Source of the DNA: Trinickia mobilis
GTDB taxonomy: Bacteria; Pseudomonadota; Gammaproteobacteria; Burkholderiales; Burkholderiaceae
Direction of reading: 5' to 3'
Assembly (NCBI RefSeq): GCF_017315705.1
Contig: NZ_JAFLRF010000009.1
Location: forward strand, 124,001-188,000
DNA length: 64,000 bases
Shown: positions 21,675 through 33,651 of the stretch, in pieces
Layout of the letters: each line of letters starts with the position of its first letter
Position numbering within the stretch: the stretch's first letter is position 1
Made by a program: the position numbers and the translations under genes
Notes under the pieces: model-generated
Databases searched by the model: none
Seen by the model: the letters and a program-made list of their open reading frames with translations, nothing else
Told to the model about the DNA's origin: nothing

Positions 21675-21793
21675 GATCGATCCAATAAAATTGCTGTGCC
21701 CTGTGTTTTTTCCTGCTTGAGTTGGCGCATCGAGGCGTCGGTGCAGGCTCTCCCTGTTCTTCTTCCGCGGGCATTGATGCGGAAAAGCCCTGA

Positions 21794-21823
21794 ATTATAA
21801 AGGGAATTCCGCGCGCAAGTCAA
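21794..21823 (-). promoter_or_regulatory. rplM-rpsI promoter
   Basis: On the minus strand TTGACT is followed after an 18-base spacer by TATAAT, near consensus for the housekeeping sigma factor. Transcription would start near 21787. Confidence 0.75.
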
Positions 21824-21885
21824 AAACTCCCCGCAACGCGCCGGACGACCCGCGCATCGGTAGATCCGACCGTATTGAACAGACG

Positions 21886-21915
21886 AAAAAAAGCCCGAAC
21901 GCTCGGTTCGGGCTT
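21886..21915 (-). terminator. Terminator of the candidate small RNA
   Basis: A perfect ten-base stem AAGCCCGAAC/GTTCGGGCTT with a five-base loop is followed on the minus strand by seven T residues. No protein gene on this strand ends before it, so it implies a non-coding transcript. Confidence 0.85.
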
Positions 21916-21977
21916 AATCCACCTAAGGAGGAGGGTGGAGGAGACATGCGAAGGTTGCCGAACAACGACAACCAATG
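21886..21977 (-). ncRNA. Candidate ~92-nt small RNA with anti-Shine-Dalgarno motifs
   Basis: A good promoter (21984-22012) and a perfect Rho-independent terminator bracket about 92 bases with no sensible open frame on this strand. The body contains CTCCTCCACCCTCCTCC followed by TTAGGTGG. These C-rich motifs are complementary to GGAGG ribosome-binding sites and should be single-stranded between the 5' part and the terminator stem. The layout resembles CCUCCUCC-type sRNAs such as the CcsR/Cuckoo RNAs of alphaproteobacteria; homology to any named family is not shown here. The terminator (21886-21915) has a ten-base AAGCCCGAAC/GTTCGGGCTT stem and seven T. Confidence 0.7.
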
Positions 21978-21983
21978 CGTCGC

Positions 21984-22012
21984 ATTATACGAACGCCCCT
22001 TGCACGACGCAA
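21984..22012 (-). promoter_or_regulatory. Promoter of the candidate small RNA
   Basis: On the minus strand TTGCGT is separated by exactly 17 bases from a perfect TATAAT. The expected start is near 21977. Confidence 0.7.
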
Positions 22013-22310
22013 GAGGATTTATATTGCGAAATATGACTTCATATTGTGAAATTAAAAACGCAACCTCAAATAGGCAAAATATGATTAAAGATCAACGATG
22101 TAGGCAAATCAGGCGCACGCAGGATGCCGCAAAAACTAGAGTAAAACCCCTAATGGGAGCGGGGAATCCCTAAAGAATCCCGAGAAGACGCAAAACGACA
22201 TCGGCCCGCTCCGTCAAGACTACGGCTCTCGCCTTCGATCGCGTCCGGCGTAGCTCATGTCAGCGGGCTACAATGCCCGTCTCGAATTACCGATTTGCTG
22301 GAGTGCAAGC
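22013..22310. other. Intergenic region upstream of the OsmC gene
   Basis: The first part is AT-rich for this genome (around 22015-22100). TACAAT at 22271-22276 may be a -10 box for the OsmC gene. I see no gene here. Confidence 0.4.
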
Positions 22311-22733
22311 ATGGAATGCAAAGTGAGCTGGATGGGACAGGACGGCATGTCGTTCGCTGCCGAAACCGGCAGCGGCCACCTGGTCGTGATGGACGGCGCG
22401 CCCGAGGGCGGCGGCCGCAATCTCGCGCCGCGTCCGATGGAAATGGTCCTGCTCGGCACCGGCGGCTGCACCGCTTACGACGTCGTGATGATCCTCAAGA
22501 AGAGCCGCCAGGAAATCTCCGGTTGCTCGGTGACACTCAAAGCGGAGCGCGCGAGCGAAGACCCGAAGGTCTTTACGAAGATCCACTTCCACTTCACGGT
22601 CACCGGCAAGAACCTGAACCCGTCGACTGTCGAGCGCGCGATCAATCTTTCGCACGACAAGTACTGCTCGGCGTCGATCATGATGGCGAAGACGGCCGAG
22701 CTCACGCATTCGTTCGATATCGTCGCGGACTGA
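22311..22733 (+). CDS. OsmC family protein (YhfA-like)
   Basis: A 140-residue OsmC/Ohr-fold protein. The two conserved cysteines are Cys53 (LLGTGGCTAYDV) and Cys119 (DKYCSASIMM), the pattern of YhfA/OsmC proteins that may reduce peroxides. The ATG at 22311 has GGAG eleven bases upstream. A bidirectional terminator follows 17 bases after the stop. Specific substrate is unknown. Confidence 0.88.
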   Translation: MECKVSWMGQDGMSFAAETGSGHLVVMDGAPEGGGRNLAPRPMEMVLLGTGGCTAYDVVMILKKSRQEISGCSVTLKAERASEDPKVFTKIHFHFTVTGKNLNPSTVERAINLSHDKYCSASIMMAKTAELTHSFDIVAD

Positions 22734-22789: not shown

Positions 22790-22799
22790 ATTGCGCGGC

Positions 22800-23210
<411 letters not shown>

Positions 23211-32289: not shown

Positions 32290-33651
32290 TTACAGCACCG
32301 TCGCGAGCGCGAAAGTCAGACCCAAACCCAACAGCGAGATGATGGTTTCGCAAAGCGACCAGGTCTTGAAGGTCTGCCCCACCGTCATCCCGAAGTACTC
32401 CTTGATCAGCCAGAAGCCGCCGTCGTTCACGTGCGAGAAGATCAGCGAGCCGGAGCCGGTCGCAAGCACGAGCAGCTCTGGCTTCACGACGATGCCGCTC
32501 GCGGACGCGATCGGTGCGACCACGCCGCAAGCGGTCGTCATCGCGACGGTGGCCGAGCCTGTCGCAAGCCGGATCAGCGCGGCCACGAGCCAGCCGAGCA
32601 GCAGCGGCGACAGATGCGCGTGCTTCGCCGTCTCGACGATCTGGGTCGAGATGCCGCTGTCGCGCAGCACGCCGCCGAAGCCGCCGCCCGCACCGACGAT
32701 GAGCGTGATGCCCGCGATCGGCGCGAGACATTCGCCGCAGAGCTTTTGGATCTGGTCGCGATTGAAGCCGCGTTGCGTGCCGAACGTCCAGAAGCTGACG
32801 AGCACCGCGATCAAGAGCGCGACGTCGGAATTGCCGATGAAATGCAGCAGATTGTTCGGCAGCGTCTTGGGCGTGAAGACGAGATCGGCCCAACTGCCGA
32901 TCAGCATCAGAATCACCGGCAAGAGAATCGTGAACAGCGTGACGCCGAAGCCCGGCAGCTCGCGCTGGCTCCCTTGTGCGTGCGTTTCCACGAACTGCGC
33001 GGCAAGCGGATTGTTCTCGGGCAGCTTCACCTGCCGGTGTACGAGCAAGGCAAAGAGCGGACCGGCAACGATCGCCGTCGGCACGCCGACGATGAGCCCG
33101 TACGCGATCGTCTTGCCGATATCGGCGCCGTACGCCTGCACCGCCAGCAGCGCGGCCGGGTGCGGCGGAATCAGCCCGTGGACGACCGAGAGCCCCGCCA
33201 CCATCGGCAAGCCCACCAGCAGCAGCGACTTGCCGGTGCGCTTCGCGACGTTGAACGCGATCGGAATCAAGAGCACGAAGCCGACCTCGAAAAACACCGG
33301 CAGGCCGACGATGATCGCGACGAACATCATCGCCCAGTGGATGTTCTTTTCGCCGAACCAGCTAATCAGCGTGGTTGCGATGCGCTCCGCGCCACCCGAC
33401 TCCGCCATCATCTTGCCGAGCATCGTGCCCAGGCCGACCACGATCGCGATGTGGCCGAGCGTGCCGCCCGTGCCGGCTTCGAACGACTTCACGATCTTGT
33501 CCATCGGCATGCCGACCGCCAAACCGAGCAGCAGCGACACGATGATCAGGACCAGGAATGGGTAGACCTTGTAGCGGGCGATCAAGAGAATCAGCGCCGC
33601 GATGGCGATCACCGTATAGACCAGCAGCATGCTGCCTTGGACAGCTCCCAT
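32290..33651 (-). CDS. gntP: Gluconate:H+ symporter, GntP family
   Basis: A 453-residue inner-membrane carrier with about twelve to fourteen hydrophobic segments. Family-like stretches are GLIPPHPAALLAVQAYGADIGKT and ATGSATVAMTTACGVVAP. The ATG at 33651 has AAGGAGG seven bases upstream, which sets the start; longer in-frame extensions were dismissed. Next to gntK and the ED genes, gluconate is the likely substrate, though other sugar acids are possible in this family. Confidence 0.9.
   Translation of the reverse strand: MGAVQGSMLLVYTVIAIAALILLIARYKVYPFLVLIIVSLLLGLAVGMPMDKIVKSFEAGTGGTLGHIAIVVGLGTMLGKMMAESGGAERIATTLISWFGEKNIHWAMMFVAIIVGLPVFFEVGFVLLIPIAFNVAKRTGKSLLLVGLPMVAGLSVVHGLIPPHPAALLAVQAYGADIGKTIAYGLIVGVPTAIVAGPLFALLVHRQVKLPENNPLAAQFVETHAQGSQRELPGFGVTLFTILLPVILMLIGSWADLVFTPKTLPNNLLHFIGNSDVALLIAVLVSFWTFGTQRGFNRDQIQKLCGECLAPIAGITLIVGAGGGFGGVLRDSGISTQIVETAKHAHLSPLLLGWLVAALIRLATGSATVAMTTACGVVAPIASASGIVVKPELLVLATGSGSLIFSHVNDGGFWLIKEYFGMTVGQTFKTWSLCETIISLLGLGLTFALATVL

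Follow-up and report, generated by a model that had tools for sequence, protein, structure and literature searches.

Cuckoo RNAs of Alphaproteobacteria carry a C-rich motif resembling an anti-Shine-Dalgarno (anti-SD) sequence, CCUCCUCCC, in stem-loops. Anti-SDs of the small RNA (sRNA) NmsR of Neisseria are reported to mediate repression of TCA-cycle genes, and S17 of Bordetella is described as a trimmed, Hfq-dependent sRNA that lowers many mRNAs. In the published description of S17, 70 of the 91 genes raised upon its deletion have sites matching single-stranded parts of the RNA, those raised include 32 transporter-related genes or operons, direct repression is demonstrated for one target, and S17S hardly slowed the growth of E. 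coli. Clones of the Rfam family RF02278 are reported to inhibit E. coli growth, hence the name of the family (PMC5688073, PMC4603805). The family includes NcS27 of Burkholderia cenocepacia, which is processed to a shorter form by trimming of its 5′ hairpin, slows growth when overexpressed and speeds it when silenced, and rises 9.7-fold in biofilm and 4.3-fold in glucose medium (PMC5688073).

The stretch of 64,000 nucleotides from Trinickia mobilis analysed here (the window) carries on its minus strand a predicted sRNA transcript (21885..21977), whose start was placed by the position of the −10 box and the length of the 92-nt homolog. The original prediction of a small non-coding RNA locus with a double anti-SD on this strand was borne out, in that its elements could be located: TTGCGT, a 17-base spacer and TATAAT are followed by about 93 bases up to the end of the U-run. 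Its description of the promoter as near-consensus holds for the −10 element TATAAT (21984..21989), but not for the −35 element TTGCGT (22007..22012), which shares only 3 of 6 bases with TTGACA, giving 9 of 12 consensus matches overall. The promoter scanner did not list the sRNA promoter, the sole one listed in the stretch being that of rplM, and simple pattern scans ran at chance level (1 promoter vs 0.9 expected; 3 terminators vs 2.6 expected). Scan and fold agree on the intrinsic terminator that had been proposed (21886..21915), with a stem of 10 pairs from 21915 to 21891 and a U-run reaching 21886.

The predicted fold comprises a 5′ hairpin (21953..21973), which going by the report on NcS27 is probably trimmed off, Site 1 (UGUCUCCUCC, 21937..21946), recognised from sequence, fold and ortholog comparison as a mostly unpaired anti-SD, and an anti-SD hairpin (21918..21939) with a 10-nt loop, CUCCUCCUUA, at 21924-21933. 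The minus strand reads CTCCTCC at 21943-21937 and CCTCCTCC at 21934-21927; of these CU stretches the first is largely unpaired, and the second forms the hairpin loop. Folded alone, the hairpin region consists of UCCACC, the loop and GGUGGA. The supposed likeness to the anti-SD tail of 16S rRNA had to be given up, as GGTGG in TTAGGTGG forms the 3′ arm of this hairpin and the loop holds the second anti-SD. The sRNA has a minimum free energy of −36.4 kcal/mol (z −5.66), and none of 200 shuffles was equally stable. A protein-coding reading was rejected: an ATG (CAUGUCUCC) is present in the window and several relatives and absent in others (for example L071-L090: GTGTCTCC), and the frame that it opens, judged by eye, runs into the terminator.

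The downstream neighbour is rplM, encoding ribosomal protein L13 (21246..21674, minus strand), for which the promoter scan found a promoter-like site with 11/12 matches downstream of the sRNA terminator (21794..21823, minus strand). Upstream, on the strand opposite to the sRNA, lies a gene (22311..22733, plus strand) that we take, after the original prediction, to be of the OsmC type, and beyond it the class A RNase P RNA (22796-23210, minus strand; 287.7 bits in Rfam). A block at about 22010-22055, upstream of the sRNA promoter, contains TTTCACAAT and TTTCGCAAT some 20 bases apart; it is conserved in close orthologs and may be where a regulator of the sRNA or of the OsmC-type gene binds. The rplM leader at about 21735-21805 (minus strand) shows 0.5-0.74 identity, above that of its surroundings, and may hold a control element of its own.

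The search of Rfam that had been suggested gave a clear answer. The covariance model of RF02278 matched within the sRNA (21885-21946, minus strand) over model positions 1-64 of 64, with 72.8 bits against a cut-off of 50 and an E-value of 8.9e-13, and the fold has the two hairpins with unpaired CU-rich stretches typical of the family. The sRNA is a real member of an already recognised kind and, since Rfam already holds the family, not a new class. At curated thresholds the 64-kb window gave two matches, RNase P and RF02278; matches to anti-hemB (RF02837, 27.7 bits vs 49.5), NmsRb (RF02877, whole-length but weak, 25.5 bits vs 52), AgvB and SorY fell below their own cut-offs. In the genome itself four RF02278 copies score over the cut-off and a fifth falls short of it. 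All 3 genomes of the genus that were searched, this one included, have matches, as do 107 of the 120 genomes of the family sample (104 above the cut-off), 9 of the 13 without a match measuring at most 1.2 Mb, and there were none in 14 named control genomes. In a divergent fifth copy, seen in two genomes of the genus (L005, L013), Site 1 and a hairpin are kept and the loop is without an anti-SD.

A pattern scan of named genomes yielded 45 loci, including that of B. cenocepacia NCTC13227, which we take to be strain J2315. This locus is 92 nt long when counted from CATTGG through the last base of the U-run, and two further copies in the same genome, on opposite strands, are 258,127 bases apart; the published length of NcS27 is 92 nt, and the tabulated spacing of ncS03 and ncS05 is 258,126 (PMC5688073). 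The ncS27 gene has been placed between BCAL3348a and BCAL3349, and the start of the latter reassigned to 3666965, which is 317 bases away from the 5′ end of the sRNA (PMC4603805). The distance from the sRNA 5′ end to the start of the OsmC-type gene is about 316 bases in NCTC13227 (L169), against those 317 in J2315. The identity with NcS27 follows because synteny, length and copy spacing agree, and these comparisons, together with the shared chromosomal place, show the window sRNA to be an ortholog of the published 92-nt RNA.

Conservation was followed in 92 loci, which had been collected either by their place upstream of rplM or by a pattern search and in which some genomes occur twice. A strict sRNA pattern fits 74 of them and fails in 18, including G001, in which a copy is present with rplM about 3.8 kb away; no integrase, as the idea of a mobile element would have it, was seen by eye among the open frames listed for this interval. 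The core was compared with the window in six 10-base blocks over 31 close ortholog loci, one genome being represented twice. Identity is 0.93-0.99 in five blocks and 0.78 in that of the terminator loop; in the flanks it falls to 0.19-0.74 past the U-run and to 0.25-0.67 in the part 121-250 bases upstream. The original prediction had stood to fall if the flanks were kept and the motif lost, and the opposite was observed. Close loci also keep the TATAAT box, a block upstream that resembles TTTCRCAAT and, for the most part, CTTG in the −35 region. A fold over 44 sequences has 21 pairs, 7 of them, by simple count, with changes on both sides, mostly in the 5′ hairpin and the terminator; two 5′-hairpin pairs are broken in 5 and 7 of the 44 sequences. 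The anti-SD hairpin hardly varies among these sequences, so that its covariation is uninformative. Site 1 is kept where the loop anti-SD is lost, in the divergent paralog (L005, L013) and in one ortholog (L108), and seems to be the steadiest part of the sRNA.

Beyond the family, 128 of 200 genomes of the order sample matched at E 1e-3, 75 of them above the RF02278 cut-off. Among the best-scoring 29 loci (L188-L216), rplM lies downstream on the same strand in 17, at no more than 430 nt in 16 and at 1,020 nt in one, and osmC and coq7 are both near in 13. In the class sample 83 of 274 genomes matched, only 3 above the cut-off, all three in the order. The sub-threshold class sequences inspected read CUCCUCCAUC-CUCCUUU-GGUGG or close forms with a terminator, and Rfam at cut-off on 15 of these loci returned tRNAs only. 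In 22 of the best-scoring 27 (L217-L243) a same-strand rplM follows at a distance of 95-417 nt, L226, L230, L231, L235 and L243 being without such linkage. The 89 hits listed, in 80 genomes, comprise at least 47 that are rplM-linked (46 genomes), 20 with rplM elsewhere and 22 undecided within the rplM rows listed. An alignment of 36 rows (A2) was made leaving out L216, L221 and L240, and a model (R1) was built from 36 beta- and gammaproteobacterial sequences, all but a few of them rplM-linked. Outside the order R1 found 118 hits in 101 genomes, at least 60 of which, in 59 of the genomes, lie a short way ahead of rplM and on its strand, the chance of a random hit being so linked amounting to roughly 0.00015; 40 of the 59 linked genomes are outside the training set. 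For 29 hits rplM is known to lie elsewhere, and 29 are undecided among the matches listed. The phylum sample gave matches in 21 of 249 genomes, two of them weak and from outside the class. G170 and G213, of one family, have the sRNA near osmC and coq7 with rplM elsewhere, which speaks against a simple linkage story.

The rplM-adjacent copy looks ancient, because matches below the cut-off in other gammaproteobacterial orders adjoin rplM on the same strand. These RNAs were stated to be found only in beta-proteobacteria as of 2020 (PMC7011215), and sRNA sequences are described as generally conserved only among close relatives (PMC4603805); a base-pairing sRNA that had stayed next to rplM in many orders would offer an uncommon fixed point from which to study regulator-target co-evolution. 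The text of the S17 preprint makes no mention of Gammaproteobacteria, osmC or synteny, and none of the titles and abstract openings consulted dealt with rplM linkage across Gammaproteobacteria, which is a statement about those titles and openings and not about all that is in print. The linkage in other gammaproteobacterial orders goes beyond the literature consulted and is the less expected part of the results. Some further observations were made in these searches. ARAGORN placed a tRNA gene in 16 of the 27 loci L217-L243, 14 being tRNA-Gln(ctg), beyond rplM where checked, and 2 tRNA-Asn. R1 also found weak tandem pairs about 150 nt apart in one family (G636:C1:824588-824863, G640:C1:4980902-4981184 and G719:C53:14087-14372). 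Of two scans of viral contigs with exact patterns, the first was empty and the second hit a single contig, with the anti-SD hairpin motif near the contig end (L244:54-80, minus strand); a phage origin was set aside, this single hit being nothing decisive.

We consider it probable, at about 0.8, that the window sRNA is a double-hairpin NcS27 ortholog of RF02278, with its own promoter and terminator, that represses the translation of uptake and catabolism genes. From the sequence and the homolog, transcription would start at its own promoter and end at its own terminator; the 5′ hairpin would probably be removed by trimming, which the literature describes for both NcS27 and S17; the loop of the anti-SD hairpin and Site 1 would pair with Shine-Dalgarno regions; and the translation of nutrient-uptake and catabolism genes would be lowered when growth slows. 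The both-side changes in the 5′ hairpin and terminator speak for this reading, and the 5′-hairpin pairs broken in 5-7 of 44 sequences speak against it. Expression, trimming, Hfq dependence and repression are here inferred from homologs, and the suggestion that such an RNA may pair with many ribosome sites as a broad regulator matches what has been found for NcS27, S17 and NmsR. Site 1 would best fit ribosome sites of the GGAGACA type. Among 586 genes called by a home-made gene caller on 864 kb of the genome, GGAGACA, the complement of UGUCUCC, precedes 18 genes, ranking second in count among GGAGNNN words and first in specificity for ribosome-binding sites (18 of 49 occurrences). GGAGACA, GGAGGAGAC or AGGAGGAG stands before the start of 21 genes, of which 20 were scanned, one crossing a piece boundary. 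Ten of the 20 had Pfam matches to transport proteins (four MFS, four solute-binding, LysE and GntP) and 3 had no Pfam match, the others including fatty-acid-oxidation-type, acyl-CoA-ligase-type and ADP-glucose-pyrophosphorylase-like enzymes and a catechol dioxygenase. The gntP-type permease gene (32293..33651, minus strand), with AAGGAGGAG before its start, is one candidate target. Random genes gave 3 of 20 uptake proteins, and the contrast is small, because the random set reaches 6 of 20 with export and lipid transport included; the samples are likewise small and no significance is claimed.

Since many genera and orders have the sRNA immediately ahead of rplM and on its strand, its hairpins and terminator could also serve in cis as a leader or attenuator of rplM-rpsI. 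We regard this as improbable, given that rplM has its own promoter-like site downstream of the terminator, that other copies of the family sit elsewhere in the genome, that an oppositely oriented gene separates the sRNA from rplM in J2315, and that rplM is about 3.8 kb off in G001 and far away in G170 and G213; a dual role is conceivable. Slightly less improbable, though still unlikely, is that the RNA brakes translation unspecifically, titrating ribosome sites at large instead of acting on a set of targets. The anti-SD sequence and the naming of the family for toxicity in E. coli would agree with such a brake; however, the targets in print are limited in number, with many transporters among them, and Site 1 extends past the universal anti-SD core to fit a particular type of ribosome-binding site. 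The epithet 'toxic' does not fit all members, because S17S was hardly toxic in E. coli. That the locus is merely a terminator and a spacer with a chance CU-rich sequence, as the poor −35 element and the chance rate of the simple promoter and terminator scans might suggest, is hardly credible in view of the covariance-model match, the contrast in conservation between core and flanks and the published expression of the ortholog NcS27.

The PhaR/PhbF regulator binds both DNA and polyhydroxybutyrate granules. The driver of accumulation of these sRNAs has been called unknown (PMC5688073), and a signal reminiscent of this regulator occurs upstream of other copies. In the 35 best-scoring other copies, from 30 genomes related to each other, TGCN3GCA lies within 75 nt upstream in 28, vs 0.5 expected from base shuffles; at −95 to −20 of rplM-linked loci it was present in 35 of 74, vs 0.9 expected. 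The best sites read TATTGCGTCGCACCA, the complement of which fits the PhbF site TG[N]TGC[N]3GCAA (PMC3206438). The genome has 8 phasin matches, with the core in 4 of the 5 upstream stretches inspected (L249 is without it), and one PhaR-type match, in whose upstream stretch (L253, 330 nt) no TGCN3GCA was found. A matrix made from five sites of three phasin upstream stretches scored 15.6 at the C13 copy, a value reached at 6 of 1,727,910 positions, 11.8 at C66, 15.6 at ncS05, 14.0 at ncS03, 10.1 at ncS27, and 14.2 and 12.3 at the sister rplM-linked copies; low scores were obtained for the weak C47 copy (5.7), C44 (4.7) and ncS62 (2.5). The window's own copy scored 7.1, reached at 1,479 positions, and the weak PhaR-like core TGCGACGCA between its −10 box and start (21976..21984, minus strand) is of doubtful significance. 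Such sites in the promoters of other copies hint at control by carbon storage, and PhaR control of some copies, not the window's, is possible; for the latter it is not claimed, because only weak sites occur there. It is a tentative and rather doubtful proposal that an ancient rplM-linked sRNA, spread across the beta and many other gamma orders, gave duplicates in Burkholderiaceae that came under PhaR/PhbF as a carbon-satiety switch, by which the family would turn off the uptake of nutrients at the ribosome site when stores fill up. A PhaR-like operator, if true, would give a testable signal for other copies. PhaR control of these RNAs did not figure in the titles and abstract openings consulted, which again bears on those and not on print in general.

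Compared with the described systems, the window sRNA shares with NmsRA and NmsRB of Neisseria (RF02877) an anti-SD located between stems and another in a loop, whereas those RNAs form a tandem pair. With NcS27 of J2315 (RF02278) it has in common the adjoining OsmC-type gene, three stems and two CU-rich stretches, the loop being CUCCUCCUAA in NcS27 and CUCCUCCUUA in the window; the loci differ by an extra small gene between sRNA and rplM in B. cenocepacia. S17 of Bordetella pertussis has Site 1, the loop site and the terminator as well, but is described as a 190-nt precursor trimmed to 67 nt and raised in the Bvg+ mode. Because S17 adjoins coq7, as do related loci of the window sRNA, it is probably the same gene as the rplM-linked sRNA, and such a lineage would unite NcS27, probably S17, and unnamed gammaproteobacterial RNAs.
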